Shown in pieces: positions 4,063 to 27,651 of a DNA stretch of 33,897 nt (the stretch's first letter is position 1; every line of letters begins with the position of its first letter). The notes beneath the pieces were generated by a model that saw only the letters and a list, made by a program, of their open reading frames with translations, made no database searches and was not told where the DNA came from. Source of the stretch: a virus; IMG/VR virus record IMGVR_UViG_3300044635_002359, positions 1-33,897 of that record. One strand, written 5' to 3'. The translations under genes and the position numbers were made by a program.

Positions 4063-4542
4063 ATGACAACTATGCATTGGATGTATCTGCCGCTCATGAA
4101 GCCTCACAACATAAGCCATGATGAAATTTCAGAAATTTTATACAGGGCAGCCAATGAATGGAACAAAACCATGCAAAATTTGGTATCTTTTGAGAACGGT
4201 GCAGGAGATTTGCAAGTACGATTGTTTTTTGGCAATGCCATTGACAAGGTTAAATATCCACACCGCGTAGCAGAATGCCGCAATAAAAAAGGGGCTTGGG
4301 AGATAGAATTTGATATCAGAACAAAATGGCACAAAGGAAAAGGTTGGAGAAGAATTTTAGGAATTGGTGAAAACCTTGTGTCTGCTGCAATCCATGAGTT
4401 TGGACATGTCATGGATTTGCCGCATTCTTCAGATTATGGTCACATTATGCATGCTGAAATACGTGATTTAAATGCATTATCATCTGGAGAATCAGCAAAA
4501 TATAAACAATTTTATCTCGAAAGAGAGAAATTTAATGACTAG
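4063..4542 (+). CDS. Matrixin-like zinc metalloprotease
   Basis: The protein is 159 aa and carries the metzincin signature HEFGHVMDLPH (His111, Glu112, His115, His121), with a Met-turn-like HIM (Met129) eight residues later. It is therefore a minimal M10/matrixin-type peptidase domain. There is no visible signal peptide or propeptide, unlike secreted cellular relatives, so it acts in the cytoplasm, in the virion, or is released at lysis. It sits between an unknown gene and a probable holin, which allows a role in lysis or entry (inference). The start is fixed by the promoter box five bases upstream. Confidence 0.82.
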   Translation: MTTMHWMYLPLMKPHNISHDEISEILYRAANEWNKTMQNLVSFENGAGDLQVRLFFGNAIDKVKYPHRVAECRNKKGAWEIEFDIRTKWHKGKGWRRILGIGENLVSAAIHEFGHVMDLPHSSDYGHIMHAEIRDLNALSSGESAKYKQFYLEREKFND

Positions 4543-4575: not shown

Positions 4576-4914
4576 ATGATTAACATGGAGGACAAAAAGA
4601 ACATCATATTAGAGTTTACCAATGGTGGCTGGATTATTCTAGTAGTGGGTGCTGCTGGAATGGCTGCTCGAATAATCTACAGTGGTGCCAAACACTCTAT
4701 CATTGACATTGTTAAAAAAATGTTTGCAGCAATGCTTTGTTCAGGAATTGCCTGGTTTGTTTTGGAGCAAACAGAAATTTCAAGCTTAACAAAAGCAATT
4801 AGTTATGGTGTTGTTGGTGTTGTTAGTCCAGAGATTGTAAATGGTCTCATCAAAATTGCTGCAAGATTTGCTAAAAATCCCATCAAGTTTTTCAACGACA
4901 ACAGATCAAATTAA
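4576..4914 (+). CDS. Probable phage holin
   Basis: A small membrane protein of 112 aa with a charged N-terminus. Three hydrophobic stretches lie at about residues 18-37, 49-66 and 75-95, followed by a basic tail (RFAKNPIKFFNDN). Size, three membrane segments and a polar basic C-terminus fit holins; the last segment (YGVVGVVSPEIVNGLI) resembles LydA-type holins. No endolysin is adjacent in this window, but a zinc protease is directly upstream. An imperfect ACTAAATA box lies three bases before the ATG, so Met4 (4585) is a possible alternative start. Confidence 0.6.
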   Translation: MINMEDKKNIILEFTNGGWIILVVGAAGMAARIIYSGAKHSIIDIVKKMFAAMLCSGIAWFVLEQTEISSLTKAISYGVVGVVSPEIVNGLIKIAARFAKNPIKFFNDNRSN

Positions 4915-4949: not shown

Positions 4950-6209
4950 ATGAACAGACGTGATTTTATTCGCATCGGTGGTGCAGGCAGTGTATCTCTT
5001 GCCCAGCTACTAAAAGCTCAGCAACAAGAGAAGCAAGCAAAAGCAAAAGCAGTTATTCAGATTTACTTGCCAGGTGGCATGAGTCATCAAGATTCATGGG
5101 ATTACAAAATGAATGGCTCTCCTGAATATCGTGGTCCGTTCAATGGAATAAAAACAAAGATTGATGGAGTATTTTTTGGTGAGTTGCTTGCACGCACCGC
5201 ACAAATTAGCAATAATCTCACCATCATACGTTCCATGACACATGGTGAAGCTGCACATGAGCGCGGCACTCACAACATGCTCACCGGATACAGACCAAGC
5301 CCCGCTTTGCAGTATCCTTCTTTTGGAAGTGTTATAAATCACGAACTTGGCAGTCAAAATAATTTGCCAGCATATGTGCTGATTCCTAATCAGTTTGCAC
5401 CAGAAAATGGCACAGGATATTTGTCAACAAAATATGGGGCATTTGCCATTGGTAGCAATCCAGAAGATCCAAGCTTCACAGTCAAAGATCTCTCACCTTC
5501 TGCAGATGTATCTCAGCAAAGCTTTGATCGCCGCAAATCACTGCTGGATGCAGTTGACAATCACTTTTTCGAGAAAGAAAAAGGCGTTGATGCAGTCAAG
5601 GCCATGGATACATTTTATAAAGATGCATACAGCATGGTCACCTCACAAAAGGCACGTGAAGCATTCTTGCTCAAAAATGAACCAGAGTCTGTAAGAGAAT
5701 TTTACGGCAAAAATGCAGCTGGTCAACGCTTGCTGTTGGCACGCAGATTAATTGAATCTGGTGTAAGAATGGTTACTGTATCTTATGGTGGTTGGGATCA
5801 TCACTCCAACTTAAAAGAAGCATACATTCAAAACATGGTCAATTTTGACAAAGCATTTGCAGCTCTCATCACAGATTTGAAGCAGCGTGGTTTGTTGGAA
5901 TCTACTCTGGTGATGGTTACATCAGAGTTTGGCCGCACACCAAAAATTAACAGTACAAATGGCCGAGATCACTGGCCTCGTGTGTTTAGCACAGTTGTAG
6001 CAGGTGGTGGCACAAAAGCTGGATATGTGCATGGAGGCAGTGATGCACTGGCTTCAGAACCAGATTCTGATCCAGTATCTCCAGGAGATCTTGCCACAAC
6101 AATGTTCAGTCTCATGGGCATTGATACAGAGAAAAAACTCATGACACAAGATTTGCGCCCAGTGCAGATTACTTATGATGCTTCCATCATCAAGGCTATT
6201 TTAGCCTAA
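4950..6209 (+). CDS. DUF1501 exported protein (first copy)
   Basis: The protein is 419 aa of the DUF1501 family, related to the alkaline phosphatase/sulfatase fold and abundant in Planctomycetota and Verrucomicrobiota. The N-terminus has a twin-arginine motif (NRRDFIRIGG) with a short hydrophobic stretch. Family hallmarks in order: LPGGMSHQDSWDYK near 40, IIRSMTHGEAAHERGTHN near 90, VSYGGWDHHSN near 275, SEFGRTP and NGRDHWP near 325-340, VSPGDLATTMFSLMGID near the end. Length and order match the family. Catalytic activity has not been established for the family. It starts a module with a PSCyt2-PSD1 protein and a second DUF1501 gene, the usual cellular pairing. A weak CAATAATA box lies five bases before the ATG. 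Confidence 0.9.
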   Translation: MNRRDFIRIGGAGSVSLAQLLKAQQQEKQAKAKAVIQIYLPGGMSHQDSWDYKMNGSPEYRGPFNGIKTKIDGVFFGELLARTAQISNNLTIIRSMTHGEAAHERGTHNMLTGYRPSPALQYPSFGSVINHELGSQNNLPAYVLIPNQFAPENGTGYLSTKYGAFAIGSNPEDPSFTVKDLSPSADVSQQSFDRRKSLLDAVDNHFFEKEKGVDAVKAMDTFYKDAYSMVTSQKAREAFLLKNEPESVREFYGKNAAGQRLLLARRLIESGVRMVTVSYGGWDHHSNLKEAYIQNMVNFDKAFAALITDLKQRGLLESTLVMVTSEFGRTPKINSTNGRDHWPRVFSTVVAGGGTKAGYVHGGSDALASEPDSDPVSPGDLATTMFSLMGIDTEKKLMTQDLRPVQITYDASIIKAILA

Positions 6210-6536
6210 TCAAGGTCTTTGAATGGCAAGAGAGAAGAATTGTGTTCTTATGCTAACATTGCCGGTGCCTGCAGTAGTCTTGGCACTCACTTGATTGCTG
6301 TTGGTTATTCCGCGAAAAGTAAATTCATCATTCGCTGACAATGCAAATGCATTGACATTATCAAAATTATTCTGATCATATACCAGGATGCCTTGACCAG
6401 TTGTATTTTTTACAATCACTTCTGAACAAACTTGACTAGGAAATGATGATAATGTAGTTGCAAGAGATAATGCAAATGATTTGCATTCATTTACATTGTA
6501 GTATGTTGTTCCGTTGTTTGTTGTTGGAGCGGGCAT
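6210..6536 (-). CDS. Small virion-type protein, 108 aa
   Basis: The protein is 108 aa, rich in Thr/Asn/Ser and probably all beta. The core VIVKNTTGQGILVYDQ and DEFTFRGITNSNQVSAK resembles small head-decoration or fibre-associated proteins of T4-like marine phages; I recognise the pattern, not a named family. It lies on the opposite strand inside the DUF1501/PSD1 module, and its stop directly abuts that of the first DUF1501 gene. Its start follows a CCTAAATA box at the standard five bases. Its presence shows the exported module is embedded among phage genes. Confidence 0.6.
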   Translation of the reverse strand: MPAPTTNNGTTYYNVNECKSFALSLATTLSSFPSQVCSEVIVKNTTGQGILVYDQNNFDNVNAFALSANDEFTFRGITNSNQVSAKTTAGTGNVSIRTQFFSLAIQRP

Positions 6537-6541
6537 GCAAT

Positions 6542-6549
6542 TATTTAGG
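6542..6549 (-). promoter_or_regulatory. Late-type promoter box
   Basis: CCTAAATA on the minus strand, then ATTGC, then ATG at 6536. Confidence 0.5.
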
Positions 6550-6612
6550 GCTAGACATTATTTTTTATAAAAAATGTTGAACTTGCCTAAATATAATGCA
6601 GATTCAATTGAT

Positions 6613-8400
6613 ATGAAAAATATACTTGCTTGTATACTGTTATTCTGCACTGCTCTTTTTAGTGCCCCCATTGCACAACTCAATGAGTTTAGCGATAAAA
6701 TCGATGGAATAATTCAAAAGCAAGCAACAACTATTAATGTTAAACTCAATGACATTGTTGATGAAGATGCATTCATACGCCGTGCATACCTTTCAATCAT
6801 AGGCAGATCTCCCACATATGAAGAGTATGAGCTTTACAGCAAAGCACCTGCAGAAACAAGACGTCAGCAGGTGATAGCATTCTTAATGAAGCATCCCGGC
6901 CATGTGTCTCACATGTTTAATTTTTGGTCTGAATCTTTGCGCTTGAGAGATCGTCTCACCAGCATCAACAATTTCTCTGGAGGCCCGTACATTGATTACA
7001 TCAAAGATTCACTTGCATCCAACAAGCCCTACAACAAGTTTGTTAGTGACTTGTTGACTTCAACTGGATCTTATTATGACAATCCAGCCACTGGTTATTT
7101 CTACAGAGACTTGGGAATGCCCCTGGACAATCTCATTGCCACAGGCAAAGTATTCATGGCAACAGACATTGGTTGCGCTCAATGTCATGATGATCCTTTT
7201 CAAGATTTTACACAAATGCAGTTTTATAAAATGGCTGCAATGTTCACTCAAGTGGAGTTGAGAGGCAGAGGCAAAGACAAAGATGCAGCAGTTGCTGCTC
7301 GCCAAAAAGCATTGAGAGAAGAAGTTGATGCGCTTATCAAAGCTGATCCAATGAAGAATAGAGGACTCAATAATCAAATCAACAATTTTGTTGCAGCAAT
7401 GAGGGCCAATTTGGAAGTTGACGAAAAGCGCACTCTTAATTTGCCTCATGATTACAGCTACAAAGATGCTAAACCAAATGAGGCAGTTGAACCAGCTGTG
7501 TTGCAAGGAAAAACTGCCATCAACAATAAAAGTGACATGCGCAAAGATGTTGTTGCATGGTTAGTAAATCCGGAACACCCCACATTCACTAAAAACATAG
7601 TGAACCGTTACTGGAAATGGGTATTTGGAAAATACATCATTGATGATTATGACAATATTCATGACAGCGATAAGCTCAATGGTGAGTTGATGAATGCATT
7701 GGCTAAAATTTTCATTGCTGTTAATTATGATAGCAGACAGTTTTTGTATGTGCTATACAACACCAAATTGTTTCAGCGCAAATTGTATGATGGAGCTTAT
7801 TCCAATTCAGACAAATTTGTATTCATTGGCCCAGTGAAGCAGCGCTTGAGTGCCGAGCAGCTTTGGGATTCAGTATTATCCATTGCTGTTATTCATCCGG
7901 AATCATTTAAACTTTCATTTCAAGATGAATATGTCAAAGTGATGCAATACACCATTGAGGATTTAACCATTGATAAGCTCAAAGCTAAAAATGAACTGTA
8001 TCAAAACATCGTGAGAACCAAGTATGATGCTGCTTTGAAATATCGCAATTATCCATTGGTAAGAGCATCAGAAGTAAATGATAACAGCACGGTGAATACT
8101 ATTCTTGAACAGCTTGGCAGAGGTGATAGAGAGCTCATTGACACTTCTTCACGAGAAGGATCTGTTACACAAGTCATTTCATTTATGAATGGACAATTGG
8201 CTGAAATAGCCATCAACAAAGACACACATCTTGCAAAAAATATAGCTGGCAAAGCTTCTGCTGATGTTGTGGAGATTATTTTTAAATCAGTATTATCTAG
8301 GAAGCCAACACTTGAAGAAAAAAGTAAATTTGCTGGCGTGCAGGATGATGACATCATTTGGGCACTCATCAACTGCTCAGAGTTCAAATTTAATAAATAA
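6613..8400 (+). CDS. PSCyt2-PSD1 (DUF1549/DUF1553) exported protein
   Basis: The protein is 595 aa. A Sec-type signal peptide (MKNILACILLFCTALFSA) favours Met at 6613 over the in-frame ATG at 6574. The N-terminal DUF1549/PSCyt2 domain shows DAFIRRAYLSIIGRSPT near residue 50, and a c-type heme motif in CAQCHDDPFQDFTQ near 185. The C-terminal DUF1553/PSD1 domain shows HPTFTKNIVNRYWKWVFGK near 335, LSAEQLWDSVLS near 415 and the closing DDDIIWALINCSEFKFN. All family landmarks are present, so it looks functional. In PVC bacteria this family is paired with DUF1501 genes, exactly as here. It would act outside the cytoplasm. Role unknown. Confidence 0.9.
   Translation: MKNILACILLFCTALFSAPIAQLNEFSDKIDGIIQKQATTINVKLNDIVDEDAFIRRAYLSIIGRSPTYEEYELYSKAPAETRRQQVIAFLMKHPGHVSHMFNFWSESLRLRDRLTSINNFSGGPYIDYIKDSLASNKPYNKFVSDLLTSTGSYYDNPATGYFYRDLGMPLDNLIATGKVFMATDIGCAQCHDDPFQDFTQMQFYKMAAMFTQVELRGRGKDKDAAVAARQKALREEVDALIKADPMKNRGLNNQINNFVAAMRANLEVDEKRTLNLPHDYSYKDAKPNEAVEPAVLQGKTAINNKSDMRKDVVAWLVNPEHPTFTKNIVNRYWKWVFGKYIIDDYDNIHDSDKLNGELMNALAKIFIAVNYDSRQFLYVLYNTKLFQRKLYDGAYSNSDKFVFIGPVKQRLSAEQLWDSVLSIAVIHPESFKLSFQDEYVKVMQYTIEDLTIDKLKAKNELYQNIVRTKYDAALKYRNYPLVRASEVNDNSTVNTILEQLGRGDRELIDTSSREGSVTQVISFMNGQLAEIAINKDTHLAKNIAGKASADVVEIIFKSVLSRKPTLEEKSKFAGVQDDDIIWALINCSEFKFNK
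8392..8399 (+). promoter_or_regulatory. Late-type promoter box
   Basis: AATAAATA, five bases, then ATG at 8405. It overlaps the last codons of the PSCyt2-PSD1 gene. Confidence 0.5.
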
Positions 8401-8404
8401 TTTT

Positions 8405-9640
8405 ATGAATACAATAAACAGACGCGACTTCATGCTTAATCTTGCATCAGCAGGGTTGGGCGTAACAGTTCTACCACATGTAGTTGCTGCTCCTGCAGCT
8501 AAAAAAGCAGAACACATCATTTATCTTTTTATGAATGGTGGCATGAGTCATTTGGATACTTTTGATCCAAAAACAAATGCAGAAGTAAAAGGTGAATTCA
8601 ATTCCATTGCAACAAATGCTGATTATCGTATTTCTGAACATTTGCCTCTCATGGCCAAGCACGGTGATAAAATGGCCATTGTTCGCTCCATGATGGTTAC
8701 AACAGGTGATCATGCAGGTGCACAATACATGCAGAGAACATCTTTTAAAAAGATTGGAACAGTCATTCACCCCAACATGGGTGCTTGGATGTGCCATTTT
8801 ACAGAAGATGGCAAGCCAAAAGTTATTCCACAAAATGTATTGATTGGTGGTGGTGCTGATCACCCTGGTGCTGGCTGGATGCCCAAAAAGTATTCTCCCA
8901 TTCCTGTTGCTGATCCTATGAGGGGTCTTGATAATACTAAACTCAAAAATTCAGCTGAATTTTCCAAGAGGGTTGCAATTCTTGATAAGCTTGAAAAAGA
9001 TGCCGACAAAATCATTAATCCGGCTCAAAAGTCATATGCTGAGTTTTATGATCAAACCATTCGCCTTCTCAACTCAAAAGATTTAGATGTATTTGATCTT
9101 TCCAAGGTGGATCAAACAACCAGAGAAAAATACGGCAATAACCGATTTGGTCAAGGTGTTTGCCTGGCAAAGCGCTTGATTGAACAAGGCAGTTGCAAGT
9201 TTATTGAAGTATCTGATGGTGGCTGGGATACTCATGTGAATAACTTTGAGTCTCTTGAAAATAAACTCAAGATTCTTGATCAGGCTGTTAATGCTCTCAT
9301 CGAAGATCTCAAATCATCTGGCTTGTTTGAAAAGACACTCATTGTGATTGCAACAGACTTTGGTAGAACGCCAAACATCAACATCAACAATGGCAGAGAT
9401 CACCACCCTGGCGCTTTTTCAGGCGTTCTCATTGGTGCAGGCATCAAAGGTGGTCAAGTGTATGGCAAATCTGATGACAAAGGCATGAGAGCCATTGACA
9501 ACATTGTGAGCCCTGCAGATTTTAATGCTACCATTGCTGCAGCTGCAGGATTGCCTGTTGAGGAGATAGTCATATCTCCAGAAGGCAGACCATTTAAAAT
9601 TGCTGACAAAGGTACTCCAGTCAAGCAATTGCTTGCATGA
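8405..9640 (+). CDS. DUF1501 exported protein (second copy)
   Basis: The protein is 411 aa. A clear twin-arginine signal (NRRDFMLNLASAGLGVTVLP) ends in VVAAPA, a plausible cleavage site. DUF1501 landmarks: MNGGMSHLDTFDPK near 45, GEFNSIATN, AIVRSMM, HPGAGWMPKKY, VSDGGWDTHVN, ATDFGRTPN, NGRDHHPGAFSG and VSPADFNATIAAAAGL. It is only distantly similar to the first copy, so the two are not a recent duplication. An upstream in-frame extension overlaps the PSD1 gene and is excluded by the signal peptide and promoter box. Its stop overlaps the next start (ATGA), which suggests translational coupling to the kinase gene. Confidence 0.92.
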   Translation: MNTINRRDFMLNLASAGLGVTVLPHVVAAPAAKKAEHIIYLFMNGGMSHLDTFDPKTNAEVKGEFNSIATNADYRISEHLPLMAKHGDKMAIVRSMMVTTGDHAGAQYMQRTSFKKIGTVIHPNMGAWMCHFTEDGKPKVIPQNVLIGGGADHPGAGWMPKKYSPIPVADPMRGLDNTKLKNSAEFSKRVAILDKLEKDADKIINPAQKSYAEFYDQTIRLLNSKDLDVFDLSKVDQTTREKYGNNRFGQGVCLAKRLIEQGSCKFIEVSDGGWDTHVNNFESLENKLKILDQAVNALIEDLKSSGLFEKTLIVIATDFGRTPNININNGRDHHPGAFSGVLIGAGIKGGQVYGKSDDKGMRAIDNIVSPADFNATIAAAAGLPVEEIVISPEGRPFKIADKGTPVKQLLA

Positions 9641-10089
9641 AAGATATAATATTAATCTTTGGACTGCCTGGAAGCGGCAAAACTACTTTGAGCAGCATGT
9701 TGAAAAACATGCTGCCTCATTGTATACATTTAAATGCAGATGAAATTAGATCAAAATTTAATGATTGGGATTTTTCTAAGCAAGGGCGATTGAGACAATG
9801 CAATCGCATGAAGCAATTGGCAAATGAAGCTGCGACAAGATTTGTAATATGCGATTTTGTATGCCCAACAATTGAATTTAGAAAACATTTTGATGCATCT
9901 TATGTAATTTGGTGCAATACACTTGGAGAAAGCAGATATAGTGATACAAATAAAATTTTTGAGACACCATCATCATCTGATTGCAATCTCATTGTTAACA
10001 GTTTTGAAAAAATGAAAGACGCAGCAATGCAGGTGCAAAATTATTTTTTTTATAAATACATGAGTGAAGAATCAAGCATATCACTTTGA
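9637..10089 (+). CDS. cysC: APS-kinase-like P-loop kinase
   Basis: The protein is 150 aa. The Walker A motif is GLPGSGKTT (residues 9-17). LNADEIRSKFNDWDFSKQGR, then ..NRMKQLA, and later FVCPTIEFRKHFDASYVIW match the order of adenylylsulfate kinases, which phosphorylate APS to PAPS. It is shorter than typical CysC (about 200 aa), lacking part of the C-terminal region, so another small-molecule or nucleotide kinase activity is possible. It is coupled by ATGA to the second DUF1501 gene. Its last codons overlap the gp15 gene and carry that gene's promoter box. Confidence 0.62.
   Translation: MKDIILIFGLPGSGKTTLSSMLKNMLPHCIHLNADEIRSKFNDWDFSKQGRLRQCNRMKQLANEAATRFVICDFVCPTIEFRKHFDASYVIWCNTLGESRYSDTNKIFETPSSSDCNLIVNSFEKMKDAAMQVQNYFFYKYMSEESSISL
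10051..10058 (+). promoter_or_regulatory. Perfect late promoter box for the tail terminator
   Basis: TATAAATA, five bases, then GTG at 10064. The box lies inside the kinase gene. By the window's rule the start of the next gene is the GTG and not the in-phase ATG at 10060, which belongs to the kinase frame. Confidence 0.65.
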
Positions 10090-11212
10090 AATAGAAGATT
10101 TAATTACGCAATTTATAACTGCGTTTGATGATTGCATAATCAAGCGCTTTGCTGGTGATAGAACTTCCAAAGATCAAATATCAGTGAGGTATGTGTATGC
10201 ACCCAAGCAGCGTGTAATTTATGACATTGTGAATGCTGGCAAAAATCTCACTCTCCCAGCAGTATCAATCAGCATTGCATCCATAACAAGAGATGCATCA
10301 AGAGTGTTTAATAAACTTGATGGCTTTCATTACCCATCAACAACTGTAGCATCACCTGCAGCATTTTCCAATCTAGTTGGTTCACCTGTTCCAGTTAATG
10401 TTGCAGTTAACATGAGCATCATTGCCAAATATCAGGCAGATATTGAGCAAATTATATCAAATTTTGCAGCATACTCCAATCCATACATTGTACTAGTTTG
10501 GAAAATACCTGCTGCATTTAATTTGAGTCAAACGTATGAAATACGTTCAGAAGTAGAATGGAGCGGCAGCATTGCTCTAAACTATCCAGGAGACATGGCT
10601 GCAACTGACAAATACAGATTAACTGCTGATACATCCTTTACCATCAAGGGTTGGTTGTTTCCTCAAGCACCAGTTGATCCCGTTAAGAACATATTCTTCA
10701 TTGATGCTAATTTTTACGCAACCAACAAATTATCTGGAAACCCAATTAATATGTCATATGCAAAATATGATGATTATGCTGCACTCAGTGCAGCTAATTT
10801 CAACGGATTTACAGAATCTGTTTTTATTTCTGCAGCACCAACCATTACTGATGTATATTACAGCAATTACATTGGAATTGGTGATCGCATGGTTAGCAAT
10901 GTAAGCATAACACCATTTATATCTGGGGGAGTGGTTACAATTTTCGGCAAAAGATTCAATGATACAAAGTATGTTGCACTGTGCAGTAATAAGTTGAACA
11001 GTTTTTATGGAGCATTAACAAGCTTCAATTTTACATACTATGATGCAATAAGTTGTTATCTTGTGAAAGATTATAACATACTCAATGATAACGTCATTAC
11101 CATCAACATACCTTCCATTTCTGCAACAGGGGCGTTTAATTTTGTTGTTTTAAATGAAGCTGGCTACGATACAACGTATAGTGCTGAGGGTGCTACCTTC
11201 ATTATAAAATGA
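10064..11212 (+). CDS. Tail sheath stabiliser / tail terminator, gp15-like
   Basis: The protein is 382 aa. The first 210 residues follow the T4 gp15 layout: IIKRFAGDRTSKDQISVRYVYAP, YDIVNAGKNLTLPAVSISI, a central VNMSIIAKYQADIEQIISNF, and a strand pair ending IKGWLFPQ. In T4, gp15 caps the tail and joins it to the neck. T4 gp15 is about 270 aa; here some 170 residues are added at the C-terminus, including a TIG/Ig-like beta segment (VSNVSITPFISGGVVTIFGK). The start is GTG, chosen from the perfect promoter box. It opens the head and neck gene run. Confidence 0.82.
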   Translation: MKNQAYHFEIEDLITQFITAFDDCIIKRFAGDRTSKDQISVRYVYAPKQRVIYDIVNAGKNLTLPAVSISIASITRDASRVFNKLDGFHYPSTTVASPAAFSNLVGSPVPVNVAVNMSIIAKYQADIEQIISNFAAYSNPYIVLVWKIPAAFNLSQTYEIRSEVEWSGSIALNYPGDMAATDKYRLTADTSFTIKGWLFPQAPVDPVKNIFFIDANFYATNKLSGNPINMSYAKYDDYAALSAANFNGFTESVFISAAPTITDVYYSNYIGIGDRMVSNVSITPFISGGVVTIFGKRFNDTKYVALCSNKLNSFYGALTSFNFTYYDAISCYLVKDYNILNDNVITINIPSISATGAFNFVVLNEAGYDTTYSAEGATFIIK

Positions 11213-11261
11213 TGGCAACCATTTGTGTAGCTGTCTTGTTATAAATAACTAAATAAACGCA

Positions 11262-13052
11262 ATGAATTCTACTTACAGCAGCCAGACCAACGTGCAGCAA
11301 ACTTTTGGAAGACAGCTCATGTCATACATTTCTTCTAAGCTGCCATATGCTGGTTTTAACATTCTTGATTTTACAGAAAAAGAAAATCCTAAATTTAAAA
11401 CATTTGAAGAAACAGGAATTCGTCGCAATGAAGCGCTTTCTAACAATTCTGTATCTCAGTCCAATTTGTTTTCTGGAGGATACGGTGAATTTAAAGAAGT
11501 GGGGTTTTCGGATCTCATGTATGCAAACGTACAAAATGATAAAGGAGCACGTTTGCAGGATTATAGAGTCATGGCAGCATTTGCAGAAGTTTCAAATGCA
11601 TTGGATGAAATTTGTGATGAAATGATTAATAGAGATGCGCAAAATAATGTAATGAATTTGCGCATCAAAAACAAGCAACTTGATCCGATACAGCTTGAAA
11701 CATTGCAGCTTGAATTTCAAAAATATGTTCAATTTTTTGATTTGGAAAACAAGGGTTGGATATATTTTAGAGATTTGCTGACAGAAGGTGAATTGTATTT
11801 TGAACATATTATTCACAAAGATTACACCAATCAAGGCGTGTTGGGTGTTGTTAGAGTACCAACAGAATTGGTAGATACAGTTTTTAACAATGTTCAGAAC
11901 ATGATAATAAAAGGCTTTTTGTACAGAAAGCCTATTTTTGATGTTGCAAATCCCAAGAAAAAGATTGAGGAAAAAATGATTCCAATGCAGGAGAATCAAA
12001 TTGTGTACATCAATAGTGGCATCTGGAACCAAAACAAAACAGTGAGACTTCCTTTCATTGAAAATGCAAGACGTGCTTACAGACAGCTTTCATTGATTGA
12101 AGATTCCATTGTCATATACAGACTTGTGAGAGCACCTGAGCGTCTCGTTTTCAATGTTGATGTAGGCAACATGGCTCCACCCAAAGCAGAGGCGTATTTG
12201 CGCAAACTTATCACACAGTATTGGAGCAGCAAGACTTTTGACGTTGATCAAAATGATGTAGCAAAGAAATTTAACCCGCAAAGCATGCTTGATAGCTTTT
12301 GGTTTGCAAAAAGAGCAGGTTCAGAAGGAACAAGCGTGACGCAATTGCCTGGTGGTCAAAATTTGGGTGAATTAGCTGATCTCATGTACTTTGTTAAAAA
12401 GTTGTATGAATCATTGAAGGTGCCAGTCAACAGACTTGATCCACAATCACAAATTGCTGATGGCAGCACAGTGCTGCGTGAAGAACTTAAATTTGCTAGA
12501 TTCATTATTCGCATGCAGCAATTGTTTGCATCTGGAATTAAAAAAGGCTTCATGACTCACTTGATGCTCAAAGGCATCTGGAAAGAATTGGAACTCAAGG
12601 AATATTTCATTGACATTGAGTTTAATCCACCTACAAATTATTATGAATTGAGACAAAGCCAGCGCATGGAACTTAAGGTTACTAACTTTAATAATCTTGC
12701 TTCAAATGCAACTGTTTCACCAACTTACCTGCAAAAGAAAATTCTACAATGGACAGACTTGGATATCAAAGTCAACAGAGAGTACTTGCGCAAAGACAAA
12801 GAATTTGAGTGGGAGCTTGCACAAATTCAACAGTCTGGACCATACTGGAAGATTGCAATGGGCAGTGCACCTGCTGGTGAAGGTGGCGGTGACATGGGAG
12901 GCGGTGGTGGTGCTGGTCCTGGTGGAGCTCCACCAGCATTTGCTGGAGGTCCAGCTGCACTTGAAGCACCACCTGAAGCTGGTGCACCGCCTGAAGCTGG
13001 TGCTGTAGAAACTCCTCCTGAAGCTGGTGCTCCGCCACCAGCAGGAGCTTAA
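11262..13052 (+). CDS. Portal protein gp20
   Basis: The protein is 596 aa and forms the dodecameric portal through which DNA is packaged. The gp20 core is unmistakable: YRLVRAPERLVFNVDVGNM, the segment SVTQLPGGQNLGELADLMYF, then KLYESLKVPVNRL. T4 gp20 is 524 aa. The excess is a C-terminal low-complexity tail of about 60 residues made of Gly-rich and EAGAPP-type repeats. A TATAAATA box lies at 11240-11247, and a second ACTAAATA lies six bases before the ATG. It is followed after 10 nt by the neck gene. Confidence 0.95.
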   Translation: MNSTYSSQTNVQQTFGRQLMSYISSKLPYAGFNILDFTEKENPKFKTFEETGIRRNEALSNNSVSQSNLFSGGYGEFKEVGFSDLMYANVQNDKGARLQDYRVMAAFAEVSNALDEICDEMINRDAQNNVMNLRIKNKQLDPIQLETLQLEFQKYVQFFDLENKGWIYFRDLLTEGELYFEHIIHKDYTNQGVLGVVRVPTELVDTVFNNVQNMIIKGFLYRKPIFDVANPKKKIEEKMIPMQENQIVYINSGIWNQNKTVRLPFIENARRAYRQLSLIEDSIVIYRLVRAPERLVFNVDVGNMAPPKAEAYLRKLITQYWSSKTFDVDQNDVAKKFNPQSMLDSFWFAKRAGSEGTSVTQLPGGQNLGELADLMYFVKKLYESLKVPVNRLDPQSQIADGSTVLREELKFARFIIRMQQLFASGIKKGFMTHLMLKGIWKELELKEYFIDIEFNPPTNYYELRQSQRMELKVTNFNNLASNATVSPTYLQKKILQWTDLDIKVNREYLRKDKEFEWELAQIQQSGPYWKIAMGSAPAGEGGGDMGGGGGAGPGGAPPAFAGGPAALEAPPEAGAPPEAGAVETPPEAGAPPPAGA

Positions 13053-13062
13053 ATAAAATAGT

Positions 13063-14232
13063 ATGAGTTGCACCATCACACCTGTATCTGCTTTTCAATC
13101 TACAAATCTCAACAGCAGAATTGATTCTTATTGTAGATTGGCTGATAGAATTGTTCGCTCACTTGGGGCTCCTTTGGTTTCTGTTGAAGTACATCAAGAT
13201 CAAATTTATGAAAACATAAGCATTGCTTGTGAACTTTTTACAAAATATGCAGGATACACACAAGAGTATCTAATTTTTGATTCTAATCTTTATGAAAAAA
13301 ACAAAGGTATTAGACTAGATGTTCTGTTTACTTTGTCAAATCCTAACTTGACATTGGATAGAAAAATTAAATCAGAAACAACATCTCGCTCAACATCACC
13401 ATACATTGAGCCACCACCTACAGAATATGTGTGCACCAGCGCTGTGCCTGCAGGTTATTTTGCACAATTATCATCTCTTTCAGCTAATTTTACAGATGGA
13501 ATATTTGCGTTTCAGTTGTTTGATTATTCAACATACAATGCAATTTTGACATCATTCAGCACTTCTTTAAATATTTCTTTAAGTGATGCATTTCGCTCCA
13601 CTCAACGCGCCTCCAATAAGCTTACAATTCAAGGCAACTGTGCAACACAAAGCGCTGAAGAATACAACAACATGTTTGATTATGATGTTATGGATTATCG
13701 CAAAGTTATTGCTGTGACAGATTTCGAAGAAGGTAGCTCAACAGGAGTTAATACATTATTTACCATTGAACAAACACTTGCCCAGCAAACATATTTCTCG
13801 TATGCCATGGGCAATTACGGCTTTGATTTAATATCTTGGTACACTCTCAAAGAATGGATTGATACACGTGAAAAGATGTTGGCTACAAAGAGAGATATGA
13901 AATTTGATGAGCGTACACAATACATGGTGATGTATCCACAGCCAAATGGCACCAGCAGGTTTTATGGAATCATATCTGCATACATTGAAAGGCCTTTGAG
14001 AGACATTATTAAAGAATTTTGGGTGTATGAGTATGCACTTGCTTTAACAAAAATATCAGTTGGATATGTTCGCAGCAAGTACGGTCAAATGCCTTTATTT
14101 GGTGGACAAGTGTTTTCTAGTGACATTATGACTCAAGGAATGGAAGAGAAACGACGTCTTGAGGAGCAACTTTACACTGGAGCTGCTCCAGGTGTTGGTG
14201 CTGTAGAGCCTGTTATGTTTCTTGTTGGCTGA
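13063..14232 (+). CDS. Neck / head-completion protein, gp13-like
   Basis: The protein is 389 aa. The N-terminal part (IVRSLGAPLVSVEVHQDQIYENISIACELF) is the pattern of T4-like neck proteins that sit under the portal. The middle and C-terminus (TREKML, MYPQPNGTSRFYGIISAYIE, KEFWVYEYALALTKISVGYV, RSKYGQMPLFGGQ, GMEEKRRLEEQL) match the long neck proteins of marine T4-like phages. It is longer than T4 gp13 (309 aa). It lies between portal and prohead protease, as expected for a head-neck module. I am sure of the virion-neck role, less sure of gp13 versus gp14. Confidence 0.75.
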   Translation: MSCTITPVSAFQSTNLNSRIDSYCRLADRIVRSLGAPLVSVEVHQDQIYENISIACELFTKYAGYTQEYLIFDSNLYEKNKGIRLDVLFTLSNPNLTLDRKIKSETTSRSTSPYIEPPPTEYVCTSAVPAGYFAQLSSLSANFTDGIFAFQLFDYSTYNAILTSFSTSLNISLSDAFRSTQRASNKLTIQGNCATQSAEEYNNMFDYDVMDYRKVIAVTDFEEGSSTGVNTLFTIEQTLAQQTYFSYAMGNYGFDLISWYTLKEWIDTREKMLATKRDMKFDERTQYMVMYPQPNGTSRFYGIISAYIERPLRDIIKEFWVYEYALALTKISVGYVRSKYGQMPLFGGQVFSSDIMTQGMEEKRRLEEQLYTGAAPGVGAVEPVMFLVG

Positions 14233-14270
14233 TAAAAGTTAATATATAAGTATAAATTAACACTAGACAT

Positions 14271-14278
14271 TATAAATA
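14271..14278 (+). promoter_or_regulatory. Perfect late promoter box for gp21
   Basis: TATAAATA, five bases, then ATG at 14284. Confidence 0.7.
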
Positions 14279-14283
14279 CCATT

Positions 14284-14952
14284 ATGGCTTTTAAACTAGT
14301 TGTAGAGAACCCAGCAGCTCAAGACGAATATGAATATATCCTCGAAGAGAAGGATCGCAATGCACCATCTACTCTTTTTATTCGTGGACCCTACATGATG
14401 GCAAATGGTGTCAATCGCAACAAAAGAGTATATCCTTTGGAAGAAATGACTCGTGAAGTTGCTAGATATACTGATGAAATGATCAAGACTGGGAGAGCCA
14501 TGGGAGAACTCAATCACCCAACTAATGCTGATGTTAATCTTGAAAGAGCATGTCACATTGTAACAGAAATGTGGCAAGATGGCAATGTTTTTCATGGCAA
14601 GAGCAAAGTGCTCACTACACCTTGCGGTCTCATTGTAAAAGCTCTTGTAAATGACGGCGTCAAAGTTGGCATGAGCTCAAGAGCACTTGGTCAACTTGTT
14701 AATGAGAGCTCTGATGGAGTTTCACGTGTTAAAGAAATGCGCCTTGTTGCCATTGATTGTGTAGCAGATCCATCTTTTCCCAAAGCATTTGTAAACGGGA
14801 TCCTGGAAAGCAAACAGTGGGTAATAGCTACTGATGGCACATACGAAGAAGCCTACAACAATTTCGAAAAAAGAATTAAAACTCTGCCCAAAAAGAATAT
14901 GGATATATTTTTGCGTGAGCAGATCATAAAATTCATACAGTGCATTAAATAA
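14284..14952 (+). CDS. Prohead core protease gp21
   Basis: The protein is 222 aa, close to T4 gp21 (212 aa). The catalytic His lies in GELNHPTNADVNLERACHIV (His78) and the Ser in GMSSRALG (Ser131 or 132). The N-terminal RGPYMMANGVNRNKRVYP is the typical prohead-protease opening. It matures the prohead by cutting scaffold, capsid and internal proteins after (I/L)xE. Candidate sites are visible in this window, for example INE|A at residue 60 of the capsid protein. A perfect promoter box drives it. It is followed by a 48-aa gene and the scaffold, as in T4-like head clusters. Confidence 0.92.
   Translation: MAFKLVVENPAAQDEYEYILEEKDRNAPSTLFIRGPYMMANGVNRNKRVYPLEEMTREVARYTDEMIKTGRAMGELNHPTNADVNLERACHIVTEMWQDGNVFHGKSKVLTTPCGLIVKALVNDGVKVGMSSRALGQLVNESSDGVSRVKEMRLVAIDCVADPSFPKAFVNGILESKQWVIATDGTYEEAYNNFEKRIKTLPKKNMDIFLREQIIKFIQCIK
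14944..14951 (+). promoter_or_regulatory. Late-type promoter box
   Basis: ATTAAATA, five bases, then ATG at 14957. It overlaps the stop codon of the gp21 gene. Confidence 0.5.
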
Positions 14953-14956
14953 TAAT

Positions 14957-15103
14957 ATGCAGAGCAATAAAAAAATAGTTCAATTTATTGGCAACGTGGT
15001 TAATAAAAATTACCACGGGGCAAATAAATACTTACGTGCACTTGTAGAAGATCGCATCAAGAACAAAATTGCACACGCTGTTAAGACCACAAAGCTTTTC
15101 TAA
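14957..15103 (+). CDS. Small basic prohead-region protein, 48 aa
   Basis: A 48-aa frame fills the gap between gp21 and gp22: MQSNKKIVQFIGNVV at the start, ALVEDRIKNKIAHAV near the end. It is basic and helical, with no cysteine. Support comes from the promoter box exactly five bases upstream, and from the next ATG (scaffold) beginning one base after its stop. T4 encodes small prohead-core proteins (gp67, gp68) next to gp21, so this may be a counterpart. That is positional inference; sequence similarity is not clear. Confidence 0.65.
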   Translation: MQSNKKIVQFIGNVVNKNYHGANKYLRALVEDRIKNKIAHAVKTTKLF

Positions 15104-15104
15104 T

Positions 15105-15998
15105 ATGGATAAATCCCAACTCAACATCATATCAGTAATCAAGGAAGCAACTGAAGGTTTGCTCTCTGATGACTCATTGACCGCAATTGAAACAGCATTT
15201 AACAGCGCTGTAGAAGAAAAAACATCTCTCAACGTTGAATCTGCGCTTGTTAAGCAAGATGCAGAGTACGCTGATAAACTCAAAGCACTTTTGGAAGCAA
15301 TTGACAAAGATCGCGCTACCAAGCTTGTAAAAGTTGTAGAAGCAGTTGATAGCAACAATGCTGCTAAGCTCAAGAAAGTTGTTTCTAAATATAAAACAGC
15401 TCTTGCAAAAGAAGCAAACGAATTTAAAAGGTCACTTGTTGGCTCCATCAGCAAGTATCTTGAAGTGTATCTTGAACAATCACTTCCACAAAACTTTATC
15501 AATGAAGCTGTCCTTGAGCGCAAAGCTCAAACAGTTCTTGAAAATCTCCGCCAACACCTTGCAGTTGACTCAGCTCTCATGAAAGAGTCTGTGCGCACTG
15601 CAGTAGTGGATGGCAAGAAACAAATTAATGAAGCTCATGATGAGCTTGAGAAAGCACAACAACGCATTAAGATGCTTGAAGGAAAGCTTGATAAAGCACA
15701 AGCTAATCTTGTCTTCGCTGAGAAGACACAGAATCTTCCATCCAAGAAGCGTGAGTATGTGAAGAGAGTATTGTCTGGCAAGACAAGTGAATTCATTGCA
15801 GAAAACATTGATTACACACTTGGCCTTTTTGACAAATCTGAATCACAACAAGTTGACTTTCTCAGAGAACAAGCAATGAAGGATGTTGTTGCAAATGATG
15901 ATGTTCCAGTGGAACAAGAAATCATTGCAGAATCTGCTAATGAAGCAGGCAGCAGCGATGTCAAAAGCATGTATCTCAATGAACTTTCCAAGTACTAA
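15105..15998 (+). CDS. Prohead scaffold protein gp22
   Basis: The protein is 297 aa and forms the assembly core that is degraded by gp21 after head shaping. It is highly charged, helical and rich in Lys/Glu/Ala, with a long coiled-coil-like stretch (ALMKESVRTAVVDGKKQIN, HDELEKAQQRIKMLEGKLDK). The C-terminal part NLPSKKREYVKRVLSGKTSE and IAENIDYTLGLF is typical of gp22 in T4-like phages. T4 gp22 is 269 aa. I start at ATG 15105, just after the stop of the 48-aa gene; an upstream in-frame start at 15069 would overlap that gene. It lies between gp21 and gp23 as in T4. Confidence 0.9.
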   Translation: MDKSQLNIISVIKEATEGLLSDDSLTAIETAFNSAVEEKTSLNVESALVKQDAEYADKLKALLEAIDKDRATKLVKVVEAVDSNNAAKLKKVVSKYKTALAKEANEFKRSLVGSISKYLEVYLEQSLPQNFINEAVLERKAQTVLENLRQHLAVDSALMKESVRTAVVDGKKQINEAHDELEKAQQRIKMLEGKLDKAQANLVFAEKTQNLPSKKREYVKRVLSGKTSEFIAENIDYTLGLFDKSESQQVDFLREQAMKDVVANDDVPVEQEIIAESANEAGSSDVKSMYLNELSKY

Positions 15999-16072
15999 AA
16001 TGGTACAAGCGGAAATTTATTTGTCGAGGCAAATTGCCTGAGTCGATAAGAAATGAAAGTTATAATAAAGGT

Positions 16073-17551
16073 ATGAAACAAATCAAACCTACACAGGCTT
16101 ACATTGATCAAAATCGTGCAAAGCAGCTTCTTGAGAAGTGGGGTCCAGTATTGGATTACACATCTAAGAATGTTTCTGCTATTGAAGACGAACACACTCG
16201 TTTGAATACAGCTATGCTCCTTGAAAACCAAGAAGCATGGTGCATCAACGAAGCTGGAAACCTTGCTGGTCAAGGTGGTGCGTTCGGTGCAAATGCTGGT
16301 GGCCAATATGGACCACCAACAGGTATTACCTCTGGTGATACATATGCTCCAGGCGACAGCCGTCTTCCGAAGATTTTGATTCCAATGATTCGCCGTACTT
16401 TCCCTGAACTTATTAGTAACGAGATTTGCGGTGTTCAGCCAATGAGCGGCCCAGTTGGTCTTGCATTTGCCCTTCGCTACAAGTATAGCAACACTACACT
16501 TGGCGGCGGCAACTACATTGACAACGGAGCCGGAAGCTCATCAGCTTACCCACATGAACAAGTACAAGTTGGCTATGGCTCTGGAAACGGTGCAAATGAA
16601 TTGGGTTACCAATTCATTGATACTCGCTTCACTGGCACTAGTGCTACTGTACTCTCCGGTGCTGCTGGCGTTTGGACATTTGCTGATCAAGACCGTGGTG
16701 TCGCTGAAATTTTGAAGAACTTCGAAATTAACAGCAACATTCCTACAGTTGAAGTCAGCTTCGAGAAAACAGCTGTTGAAGCTGGTACTCGTCGTCTTGG
16801 CGCACGCTGGTCTGTTGAGCTCGAGCAGGATCTTAAGAACATGAACGGCATCGATATTGACGCTGAGATTACAAATGCTATGGCATATGAAATCCAAGCC
16901 GAAATTGACCGTGAAATGATTGTTCGCATGATTCAAGCTGCTCTCAACGCCGGATCCGGCGCTGGCTACTCCACATGGAGCCCTGCTTCTGCAGATGGCC
17001 GTTGGATGGTTGAACGCAATCGTGACTTCTATCAGAAACTTATTATTGAAGCAAACAGAATCGCTGTGAGAAATCGCCGCGGTGCTGCAAACTTCATTGT
17101 TGCTACACCACGTGTTTGCGCAATCCTTGAAATGCTCCCTGAATTCCAGTGGGTACCTGTTCAAGGCAATGTGAATACACAACCAACTGGTGTTGCTAAA
17201 GTAGGTTCTCTTGGTGGTCGTTTCAACGTATATCGCGATACTCGTACAGAAGTGCAGAACTCATCAATCTATGGTAACAATGGCTACACCAGCCAGACTT
17301 CCGGAGTTGAGTACGCACTTCTTGGCTACAAAGGCAGCGAATTCTACGACACTGGTATCATCTATTGTCCGTATATTCCTGTCATGGTACAGCGCACCAT
17401 CGGTCCAAACGACTTTGCTCCACGCGTAGGCTTGCTTACACGTTACGGCGTCGTTGACAACATCTTTGGCGCTAATCTGTACTATCACGTGGTCATTGTT
17501 CAAGGATTGGGCGTTGCGTTTACACCAGCCTCAAAATCTATTTACTTCTAA
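16073..17551 (+). CDS. Major capsid protein gp23
   Basis: The protein is 492 aa and forms the hexamers of the head. T4 gp23 landmarks: AMLLENQEAW near 50, MIRRTFPELISNEICGVQPM near 115, ARWSVELEQDLKNMNGIDID, NRIAVRNRRGAANFIV, and YHVVIVQGLG at the end. A probable gp21 cleavage site, INE|A, lies after residue 60 (T4 cuts after Glu65). The start is ATG 16073; a TTG at 16034 would add 13 residues. A TTATAATA box lies five bases before the ATG. Codon use is visibly richer in C-ending codons than in neighbours, as for a highly expressed gene. A strong terminator follows. Confidence 0.97.
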   Translation: MKQIKPTQAYIDQNRAKQLLEKWGPVLDYTSKNVSAIEDEHTRLNTAMLLENQEAWCINEAGNLAGQGGAFGANAGGQYGPPTGITSGDTYAPGDSRLPKILIPMIRRTFPELISNEICGVQPMSGPVGLAFALRYKYSNTTLGGGNYIDNGAGSSSAYPHEQVQVGYGSGNGANELGYQFIDTRFTGTSATVLSGAAGVWTFADQDRGVAEILKNFEINSNIPTVEVSFEKTAVEAGTRRLGARWSVELEQDLKNMNGIDIDAEITNAMAYEIQAEIDREMIVRMIQAALNAGSGAGYSTWSPASADGRWMVERNRDFYQKLIIEANRIAVRNRRGAANFIVATPRVCAILEMLPEFQWVPVQGNVNTQPTGVAKVGSLGGRFNVYRDTRTEVQNSSIYGNNGYTSQTSGVEYALLGYKGSEFYDTGIIYCPYIPVMVQRTIGPNDFAPRVGLLTRYGVVDNIFGANLYYHVVIVQGLGVAFTPASKSIYF

Positions 17552-24462: not shown

Positions 24463-26957
24463 GCAATTATCACCAGCATTTACTATCAGGCAAAGAACCA
24501 ACTGATATTAAACAATTTGTATTAGATCCTAACTTTTACAACCAATCACTTCCAGGTTTTTACAGAGGCATAGTTTTGCAAAACAATGACCCAGAGCGCC
24601 GCGGGCGTGTTAAAATTTTTATACCTGCATTTTCGCCACACATTTATGATCAATGGCTAAGAGGCACCAAAGAAGAAGGTCAGGATGAGGTGAATTTTAC
24701 AAACAAAAAATTTAGATTTTCACAAGGATCCAACATCAATAAAGTTGATTGCACTGATGAAGATAGGCCATCTCTCATACAAATTGCTGAAGAGGCAAAA
24801 AAAGTTTTAGAGTGGGCTGAACAAGCATCTTGCTTGTTTGGTTCTGGATCAAGTGGGCTCTATGGATTAGAAGAAGACAAATGCACTATATCTGATGCTT
24901 CAACTAGTGAAAGATTTCCTGCTGCAAACAATGCACAATGTGCAAAGCAGGCAAGTGCAGGCAGCGTAAATGTTGATAATATCGGTGAAAAGGGTGGATA
25001 TAAATTTGAAATTGATAGCCCAGAAACAGATCTTCAAGATGGTTATGTGAGCCTTAATGAAGATAAAATGCCTGATGTCAATGCATTTGCTAAAACATAC
25101 AAGCCTTCAACATACAGCAATAAAACCAAGGGCATTTTTACAGTTCCTAATGTTGGTGCCACCGTTTGGGTATTTTTTGAAAATGGAGATGTTATGCGCC
25201 CTGTTTATTTTGCATACAGTTATGACAAAAGAGATTGGCAGAGCATTTATGAAGTTGGCGCAAACAATGGACCTGATTATCCTGGTGCTTTTGAAAATAC
25301 TGTAAATAGTGCTGATAACCAAAAAATAAAAAAAGGCAAAACAGTTTTTAATTCCAAAGCTGGAGCCATTGAGTTTATAGATACTGATGAATTTGAACAA
25401 ATAAAAATTACACAAGCTGGTGGATCATTTATTCAACTCAGCAACAAAGCAGCAGTGTATTATGTTGATAAGAATGAACAAAAACTTGTGAGCGGTGATC
25501 AATTTGAGACTGTTAATCAAGTTAAAAATTTGCGAGTCAAAAAAGGATACAACATAGGTATAGATGAAAGCAGATGGACTCGCATTGGCTTTTGGAACGC
25601 TGATGCTTACAATGGCTGGAAAGAAGAAAACAGAATCATTGCAGATACGCGTGCCAGATTTGCCATCAAGCGTGCCACTGTGCAACCATCAACTAGCATC
25701 TCATTGCCTGCAGGCAGTATCAAGCAAGAACAGGCTGGAAAATTTGCAAGCAATCCTGTTCTATCTGATATCACAACTGCCATAACATCACCTGCAATTA
25801 ATCAGGTGTATAATCAAATACCTGCATCAAGCACAGCCAAGGGCAATCAATGTTCTACACTGGAAACTGCAACAAATTCTGTGCAGGGCAATTCTTCGAT
25901 GGCAGCAAATGTATCACCATCATCTGAAGAATTTCAACAAGCTGCTGGTGCCAATGGATCAAATAATTTCAGCGGAGATCCTGCCAAGTCGTCTTCAACT
26001 GAAAATGGTTCGTGGGATTTTGACAATGATTATGCAGCAATTAATGATTTAGAAACAAAACAAGCAAGCAAAATGCTTGAGTTTGAAACAAAATTTGGCA
26101 ATGGTGGTGATGATCTCACAGAAATAACTCGTCACAAAATTGAAATAATAGGTGCTGCTTTCAATGATGCTCCAAGTGTAAGAGTTGATGCAGTTGGTAG
26201 ATCCAATTTCAATGAAGTTCTCGTTGGTACCAAAGGTGCCTTTGCATCTCGCAAGCCTAGTTCGCTGGTGGAACGAGTTGCAAATGATGGTAAATTCCCA
26301 TGCGGAAATTATACACTTGTAATTGGCAATACCCTCAGCGTTAGTTCTGGTGCAGGTGGTATTAAACTGATGACCACTGGGTGCATAGACATATGCGGCT
26401 CACAAATTCTTGTGGCTGGTAGCAATGAACTGTTGCTGAGCAGCGGCGGAGATATCAATGTAACAAGCCAGGGCAAATTTTCTGTAACTGCTGATATTAT
26501 TACTTTTAGACAATCAAATGGCAAACAGGTTGCCATTGATGGTAGTTTGGGGGTGAATAATAATCTTGTGGTTGCTGGTGGTGCATACATTGAAGGTGAA
26601 TTGTGCATCAACCACATAACTGCTCCAGTGGAGATACAAGAAACTGAAACAATGCAGTTGTTTGGCAGCACAAGAATTGAGCCAAATCAATTCATCGTTG
26701 GATATGTTTATGCAGACCAAGGCGGTGATAGTCCTGATTGGCGCCCAGTTTATTCAGCTGTTGTTAAAGATGGGACGCTCTTGCAAAGCACTCCAGATTG
26801 CATAATCAATGTGCCTCATTCACACAACTTTAAAAATATTCCATTGACGCTCAAGCAAAACAATGAAGGCGTAAGAACTGCTGCATCTGCAATGAACAAA
26901 GGCAGCAATCGTTTGCCTGCATCACCAATTCGCAATGGAATGAAACAGTTGAGTTAA
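24459..26957 (+). CDS. Baseplate hub spike, gp5-like
   Basis: The protein is 832 aa. An N-terminal OB-fold of the gp5/VgrG type is visible in GFYRGIVLQNNDPERRGRVK (residues 33-52). It continues after an insertion with FTVPNVGATVWVFFENGD and VMRPVYFAY near 230-260. The last 250 residues are a repetitive beta region (GGIKLMTTGCIDICGSQILV, GGDINVTSQGKFSVTAD) like the gp5 needle. The lysozyme domain of T4 gp5 is not evident. It pierces the outer membrane during tail contraction. It is coupled to the upstream gene by ATGA. Its stop overlaps that of the convergent clpP-like gene. Confidence 0.85.
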   Translation: MSNYHQHLLSGKEPTDIKQFVLDPNFYNQSLPGFYRGIVLQNNDPERRGRVKIFIPAFSPHIYDQWLRGTKEEGQDEVNFTNKKFRFSQGSNINKVDCTDEDRPSLIQIAEEAKKVLEWAEQASCLFGSGSSGLYGLEEDKCTISDASTSERFPAANNAQCAKQASAGSVNVDNIGEKGGYKFEIDSPETDLQDGYVSLNEDKMPDVNAFAKTYKPSTYSNKTKGIFTVPNVGATVWVFFENGDVMRPVYFAYSYDKRDWQSIYEVGANNGPDYPGAFENTVNSADNQKIKKGKTVFNSKAGAIEFIDTDEFEQIKITQAGGSFIQLSNKAAVYYVDKNEQKLVSGDQFETVNQVKNLRVKKGYNIGIDESRWTRIGFWNADAYNGWKEENRIIADTRARFAIKRATVQPSTSISLPAGSIKQEQAGKFASNPVLSDITTAITSPAINQVYNQIPASSTAKGNQCSTLETATNSVQGNSSMAANVSPSSEEFQQAAGANGSNNFSGDPAKSSSTENGSWDFDNDYAAINDLETKQASKMLEFETKFGNGGDDLTEITRHKIEIIGAAFNDAPSVRVDAVGRSNFNEVLVGTKGAFASRKPSSLVERVANDGKFPCGNYTLVIGNTLSVSSGAGGIKLMTTGCIDICGSQILVAGSNELLLSSGGDINVTSQGKFSVTADIITFRQSNGKQVAIDGSLGVNNNLVVAGGAYIEGELCINHITAPVEIQETETMQLFGSTRIEPNQFIVGYVYADQGGDSPDWRPVYSAVVKDGTLLQSTPDCIINVPHSHNFKNIPLTLKQNNEGVRTAASAMNKGSNRLPASPIRNGMKQLS

Positions 26958-27487: not shown

Positions 27488-27651
27488 ATATTTTGTATGT
27501 CGTTTATAATTAGTTCTAACAATTCTTGCTTTTCTTGCAAACACTGAGAGAGCATCTCATCATCATTATCCATGATTATAAGATGATCTTGCTGCATATC
27601 TAGTTCAATCAATTTTTGCTTCCATTTATTGATTAGAGGTGCACTTTTCAT
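27484..27651 (-). CDS. Small helical protein upstream of clpP, 55 aa
   Basis: A 55-aa frame beginning at ATG 27651, exactly five bases after a perfect TATAAATA. It is helical and acidic (WKQKLIELDMQQDHLIIMDN, LQEKQELLELIINDI), probably a short coiled coil. Its stop overlaps the clpP-like start, so the two are translated together. It could be an adaptor or regulator of the protease by position only; no known family recognised. Confidence 0.6.
   Translation of the reverse strand: MKSAPLINKWKQKLIELDMQQDHLIIMDNDDEMLSQCLQEKQELLELIINDIQNI

Follow-up and report, generated by a model that had tools for sequence, protein, structure and literature searches.

The window analysed here is the whole of the viral record IMGVR_UViG_3300044635_002359, complete at 33,897 bases, and within it lies a module of three genes in which two DUF1501 proteins (A and B) flank a PSCyt2-PSD1 (DUF1549/DUF1553) protein, with a small gene on the opposite strand between the first two (Table 1).

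Table 1. The module, its late-promoter cores and its neighbours, with positions in the window
Feature	Positions	Strand	Remarks
M10/matrixin-type metallopeptidase, small	4063–4542	+	Pfam E 7e-9; own late box
Holin-like protein, weak match	4576–4914	+	directly upstream of DUF1501A
DUF1501 protein A, 419 aa, twin-arginine leader MNRRDFIRIGGAG	4950–6209	+	PF07394 E 2.1e-109
Small conserved ORF, 108 aa	6210–6536	-	in the DUF1501A–PSD1 gap; own late box at -11
TAAATA late core of ORF 6210–6536	6542–6547	-	-11
TAAATA late core of the PSD1 gene	6588–6593	+	-22 from the ATG at 6610
PSCyt2-PSD1 (DUF1549/DUF1553), CAQCH haem motif, Sec-type leader	6610–8400	+	PF07583 E 9e-33, PF07587 E 4.8e-27
TAAATA late core of DUF1501B	8394–8399	+	-11; overlaps the final codons of PSD1
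DUF1501 protein B, 411 aa, twin-arginine leader	8405–9640	+	PF07394 E 1.6e-96
T4-type tail/head cluster: gp15 (10064), gp20 (11262), gp21 (14284), gp23 (16034)	10064–17551	+	downstream context

Both DUF1501 proteins match PF07394 over the full profile length (366.7 bits for A and 324.3 for B, against a cut-off of 27), and the PSCyt2 and PSD1 domains score 114.4 and 95.4 bits against cut-offs of 29.8 and 28.5. DUF1501A is the orthologue of a DUF1501 protein conserved in PVC bacteria; DUF1501B is of the type that partners PSCyt2-PSD1 in operons. PHROGs and NCBIfam offered no named family for any of the three, and PADLOC assigned them 0 families, i.e. no match to a known anti-phage defence. The PSD1 reading frame is also open from 6574 (the Pfam matches were made on 6574–8400), but its start is most likely at 6610, which is where homologues begin; moreover, the two ATGs have the late box at 6588 between them; DUF1501B starts at 8405, within a longer listed ORF beginning at 8264. 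The leaders, judged by eye and without a trained predictor, read MNRRDF in DUF1501A and NTINRRDF in DUF1501B and are hydrophobic in PSCyt2-PSD1. RR at positions 3–4 was counted in 58/61 and 59/61 DUF1501 sequences, export itself being inferred. The haem motif is intact, with C201, C204 and H205 invariant in 26/26 aligned family members, and the covalent attachment of a c-type haem is an inference that rests on this CxxCH motif.

The surrounding genome is that of a T4-like phage, in which gp15, gp20, gp21 and gp23 were all found near the module. Since the best cultured match of its divergent gp23 is only ~34% identical, the lineage is remote from cultured phages. Downstream, a kinase gene overlaps the module by 4 bases, with the four structural genes further on. 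Upstream, the holin-like protein is supported by PF05106 (E 0.0045), phrog_126 (E 1.1e-4) and TIGR01594 (E 6e-4, under the TIGR01594 cut-off). The metallopeptidase gene directly precedes it, and a role of the peptidase in lysis is possible. Elsewhere in the genome a ClpP-like protease (26954–27544, minus strand) matches head-maturation-protease PHROGs; the phage encodes the T4 gp21 protease as well.

Of the 36 gene starts in the window, 19 have the T4-late core TAAATA in the 45 nt before them, mostly at -11, against a mean of 1.0 and a maximum of 5 for random positions; in the tail/head cluster TATAAATA occurs at 10051, 11240 and 14271. No late box lies directly upstream of DUF1501A in the window, so that, inferring from sequence alone, this gene would need read-through from the holin promoter. 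Among the orthologues listed, a box is found upstream of DUF1501A in 11/13, of PSD1 in 12/13 and of DUF1501B in 11/13 (34/39 in sum). TAAATA at -11 is also seen for the starts at 4063, 8405, 10064, 14284 and 28933 on the plus strand and at 6536 and 18524 on the minus strand; with T4 geometry, a box at this distance would have late mRNAs begin at or beside the ATG, suggesting near-leaderless transcripts in this phage group.

Most of what the earlier note had read in the letters was borne out, namely a PSCyt2-PSD1 protein with CAQCH and a Sec-type leader, set between two DUF1501 proteins of Tat type in a T4-like phage, phage-type promoter boxes, and a position between a holin-like gene and the tail/head cluster, the holin match being weak. 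Its description of the opposite-strand gene as 'virion-type' found no support, no family match having been obtained in Pfam or PHROGs, but the ORF is a real gene, as shown by its own late box and by its conservation (homologues 37–97% identical, those at the same place in related phages 54–97%).

The module is not peculiar to one contig. In IMG/VR, 19 viral contigs carry a PSCyt2-PSD1 relative and DUF1501 relatives occur in at least 161 places. In two contigs from other metagenomes (L003 and L022) the gene junctions of the window are repeated, with 97–99% protein identity for most genes, and in four more (L004, a 224-kb contig with the same gene set, and L012, L016 and L017) the block is retained, whole or in part, ahead of gp15–gp20–gp21–gp23. 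A second group (L005, L006, L008, L009 and L018) has the PSD1–DUF1501B pair among helicase, SSB, RNase-H-type exonuclease and primase genes, with DUF1501A on the opposite strand ~6–7 kb away. The set has therefore moved or been split, yet is still retained. At this second position the module and the structural genes carry a late box whereas the replication neighbours do not, excepting a weak TAAATA match at -19 from an ATG internal to the SSB gene, and the box is therefore the module's own. No other evidence points as strongly as the late boxes to a function in late infection, a timing inferred in the absence of transcript data.

Across 51 viral records DUF1501 is present in 51/51, PSCyt2 over the cut-off in 16/51 and gp23 in 10/51. 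All 16 PSCyt2-bearing records have a DUF1501 gene within ~2 kb and 13 of them a second one, and 35/51 (some of them fragments) have DUF1501 without PSCyt2. Marine contigs lacking gp23 contain three or four DUF1501 paralogues in arrays and no PSCyt2; one of these (G036, 145 kb) carries rII, NrdAB, DnaB and pol genes. When 50,697 phage records were searched by tblastn, no relative of DUF1501A or PSCyt2-PSD1 was found, and DUF1501B gave one weak partial match, on a 6.9-kb record. An automatically annotated 'DUF1501 domain-containing protein' of an uncultured phage (A0A6J5M742) is already in the viral database, and a search of the open-licence literature found DUF1501/DUF1553 in phages nowhere except for one weak 61-aa CDD match in a Pseudomonas phage. 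The domain is thus present in phage databases, but within that literature we found neither it nor the module described in phages.

All three module genes are under strong purifying selection: compared with the nearest relative, L003, dN/dS is 0.03 for DUF1501A, 0.06 for PSD1 and 0.06 for DUF1501B, with no stops, and more distant pairs give 0.04–0.16, dS often being near saturation. In DUF1501, the active-site-like residues G42, H103, D283, H285, D300, R329 and H341 are identical in 61/61 phage and cell sequences; only D or E occurs at position 48, and E or D at position 326. The DUF1501A model (pLDDT 91) matches sulfatases and LtaS in Foldseek (E 5e-8 to 1e-6, prob 1.0, TM ~0.4), and weak sequence matches to Sulfatase, Phosphodiest and LtaS were also obtained. 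The protein is accordingly predicted, by model, to share the sulfatase/LTA-synthase fold, distantly. From its spacing to the TG motif, and without superposition, we infer that H103 falls at the position of the sulfatase formylglycine Cys. A canonical FGly-type sulfatase can be rejected, as the C/S-x-P-S-R motif is absent at the nucleophile site and His103 stands there in all 61 sequences; with His at this site, DUF1501 may be a non-canonical enzyme or merely a binding protein. The AlphaFold model of PSCyt2-PSD1 (pLDDT 86) has no solved relative (best Foldseek E 0.69), and a sequence search for structural kin matched only the haem segment of other cytochromes; a confident model without a solved relative could represent an undescribed c-type haem fold.

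Among cellular DUF1501A proteins, those of freshwater Verrucomicrobiota come closest (55–61% identity), with Planctomycetota next; the closest cellular identity is 49% for DUF1501B and about 31–39% for PSD1. In careful trees DUF1501A forms a phage-only clade (100/99) beside Verrucomicrobiaceae/Opitutae sequences, and PSCyt2-PSD1 a phage-only clade (95/95) beside a clade drawn from largely the same bacterial genomes as the sisters of DUF1501B, which in a quick tree itself forms a phage-only clade (100*) beside Verrucomicrobiaceae. In those Verrucomicrobiaceae genomes the PSCyt2-PSD1 and DUF1501B genes are adjacent, and PSD1 and DUF1501B were thus likely taken up as a pair. The trees demonstrate that phages captured both this pair and the DUF1501A gene, the nearest cellular relatives being of Verrucomicrobiaceae type; that the transfer ran from cell to phage is inferred from the nesting of the phage copies among PVC sequences. 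Taking all phages together, PSD1–DUF1501 pairs were gained at least three separate times, one contig (L034) having a second, separately acquired pair, both genes of which group with genome G083, and L036-type contigs a third. A single phage origin of DUF1501A was rejected, as the tree forces at least five changes on well-supported branches.

DUF1501A is the first gene of a conserved operon in most PVC genomes, and this operon also encodes a PPC-domain protein and a PSCyt1-PSCyt2-PSD1 protein (the annotated contig adds a PSCyt1-WD40 protein); no homologue of the PPC protein was found in the phage loci examined. In seven Verrucomicrobiaceae-type contigs (L105, L106, L107, L109, L111, L120 and L101) DUF1501A adjoins an S11 D-Ala-D-Ala carboxypeptidase gene, and in L101 it is also near ftsQ–ftsA–ftsZ. 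The latter is a Prosthecobacter chromosome contig with the PSD1–DUF1501B pair and DUF1501A within 8 kb; that it might be a mis-binned phage contig was ruled out by these cell-division genes and the DD-carboxypeptidase gene. Host genomes have 8–72 detected DUF1501 relatives each, and R. baltica has 41 of each PSC2/PSD1 domain (PMC2754498). That the phage infects Verrucomicrobia/Planctomycetes-type bacteria is inferred only from the donor, and 388 sampled genomes of the phylum contained no convincing T4-like capsid gene that would provide a host link via gp23.

Five independent lines support the earlier note's main claim, that the set has a kept phage function: wide viral occurrence, phage-only clades, purifying selection, conservation of the set at two genome positions and late boxes belonging to the module. 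Its expectation that phage copies would form their own clade held, gene type by gene type, in this phage group, while several independent captures are seen across all phages, and neither of the outcomes it had named as refuting (homologues limited to one bacterial genome, or a chimeric contig) was met. Among the functions it had listed (surface remodelling, electron transfer, cutting of a sulfated or phosphorylated polymer) sequence data cannot decide.

We propose that these genes, which are maintained under purifying selection and have a T4-type late box upstream in most relatives, constitute a host-derived, phage-maintained, late envelope module that remodels the host surface; without data on substrate, activity, localization or infection, this proposal could in our judgement equally well prove right or wrong. 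In this view the infected cell would make the module proteins late in infection; DUF1501 would leave folded via Tat and PSCyt2-PSD1 via Sec, the host attaching haem, and the proteins would work in the periplasm or on the cell surface, where DUF1501, as a metal-site enzyme, and its redox partner may modify an envelope polymer that is phosphorylated, sulfated or glycosidic. The likeliest benefit would be removal or masking of the receptor, so that progeny do not re-adsorb or other phages are kept out; alternatively, the envelope may be loosened for exit. The Tat/Sec leaders together with late timing favour an envelope role, and the carboxypeptidase and ftsQ–ftsA–ftsZ genes beside cellular DUF1501A are a further point for it.

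The nearest competitor, which remains possible, is an auxiliary metabolic module whose exported enzymes help the infected cell to obtain more phosphate, sulfate or sugar from outside polymers. PVC bacteria are thought to use such enzymes in this way, host genomes keep DUF1501 relatives in the numbers given above, PSCyt genes lie near sulfatase genes, some with carbohydrate-binding modules (PMC5615132), the donor lineage is a saccharide-degrading group and phages captured the pair several times. The cellular derivation required of an auxiliary metabolic gene is met, the module genes being nested among PVC sequences. The function of the cellular families is not known, and the published guesses, redox and carbohydrate metabolism (PMC2754498, PMC5615132), may fit this role too. 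Against it, late-promoter control would come late for feeding a cell, phages carry only one to four of the tens of host copies, and the partners of DUF1501A in the cell operon (the PPC protein and PSCyt1-WD40) were left behind. Less plausible, and in our view unlikely, is envelope electron transfer, in which the c-type haem protein would be the working part, sustaining an envelope redox chain or disulfide/haem chemistry late, with DUF1501 as accessory. CxxCH is invariant in phage and cell copies, and a Rhodopirellula PSD protein is stress-linked with a proposed redox role (PMC2754498); however, in the records without PSCyt2 DUF1501 works without a haem partner, at least there, and window-type phage copies lack the PSCyt1 domain of the cellular DUF1501A-operon relatives.

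A virion-associated depolymerase, with DUF1501 on the particle cutting the host surface at entry, would account for late boxes like those of structural genes, for the adjoining head/tail genes in the window and for the sulfatase-like fold. We hold it to be very unlikely, as Tat/Sec leaders direct proteins away from the cytoplasm, where virions are assembled, and the second genome position lies among replication genes. Accident or artefact, i.e. bacterial DNA that inserted recently or a chimeric assembly, could be argued from the typically cellular nature of these families and the want of a convincing relative in the 50,697 phage records. It is all but excluded by junctions that recur almost unchanged in independent assemblies, the same genes in contigs of 40–225 kb, phage-only clades, purifying selection, two genome positions and late boxes owned by the module.

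With regard to known systems, the phage set resembles the cellular DUF1501 and PSCyt-PSD operons of Verrucomicrobiota and Planctomycetota in families, leaders, haem motif and the order of PSCyt2-PSD1 with DUF1501 downstream, and its pair is sister to a Verrucomicrobiaceae pair. Unlike those operons it is minimal, without PSCyt1, PPC and WD40 partners, joins one DUF1501A to a PSD1–DUF1501B pair and has phage late boxes. DUF1501A resembles the sulfatase/LTA synthase/alkaline phosphatase superfamily in fold, in weak sequence matches and in a TG-motif helix as in sulfatases, but DUF1501 has no formylglycine motif and the invariant H103 replaces the Cys/Ser/Thr nucleophile. T4-like phages keep host-derived auxiliary metabolic genes such as cyanophage psbA; in contrast to these, the module comprises three genes with late boxes, and its products are predicted exported envelope proteins whose function is unknown. 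Phages also have superinfection-exclusion and receptor-modifying proteins, and exported proteins that alter the host surface would work likewise; to our knowledge none of these uses DUF1501 or PSCyt-PSD.

Returning to surface remodelling, a bolder reading is that the module belongs to a new class of phage envelope-remodelling system, an enzyme pair of Tat/Sec-exported DUF1501 and c-type haem PSCyt2-PSD1 with an unusual His-centred sulfatase-fold site, that chemically alters a PVC-specific surface polymer late in infection and has been repeatedly captured by unrelated large phages. We think it clearly more apt to fail than to hold; were it true, it would reveal what one of the largest sets of paralogous proteins in Planctomycetota and Verrucomicrobiota does. 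DUF1501 and PSCyt/PSD are present in tens of copies per genome there, with no known role, and a phage with two or three late-boxed copies provides a small, testable set. The set adds a predicted exported envelope module, haem-containing as inferred from the motif, to those known to be kept by phages, and may serve as a marker for phages probably infecting abundant, poorly cultivated PVC bacteria. More broadly, large viruses of aquatic bacteria appear to have taken over a predicted sulfatase-fold enzyme, exported together with a putative haem partner, from Verrucomicrobia/Planctomycetes-type bacteria on at least three separate occasions.

As for the marine arrays, DUF1501 genes in L047, L061, L078, L085, L087–L089, L096, L098, L099 and similar contigs (of up to 145 kb) often adjoin nrdA/nrdB, and each paralogue type is largely its own phage clade. 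In the same genome as the array of G036, four proteins match a nucleotide-sugar epimerase family and four a glycosyltransferase family (L300–L307), which may be another hint at surface-glycan remodelling.
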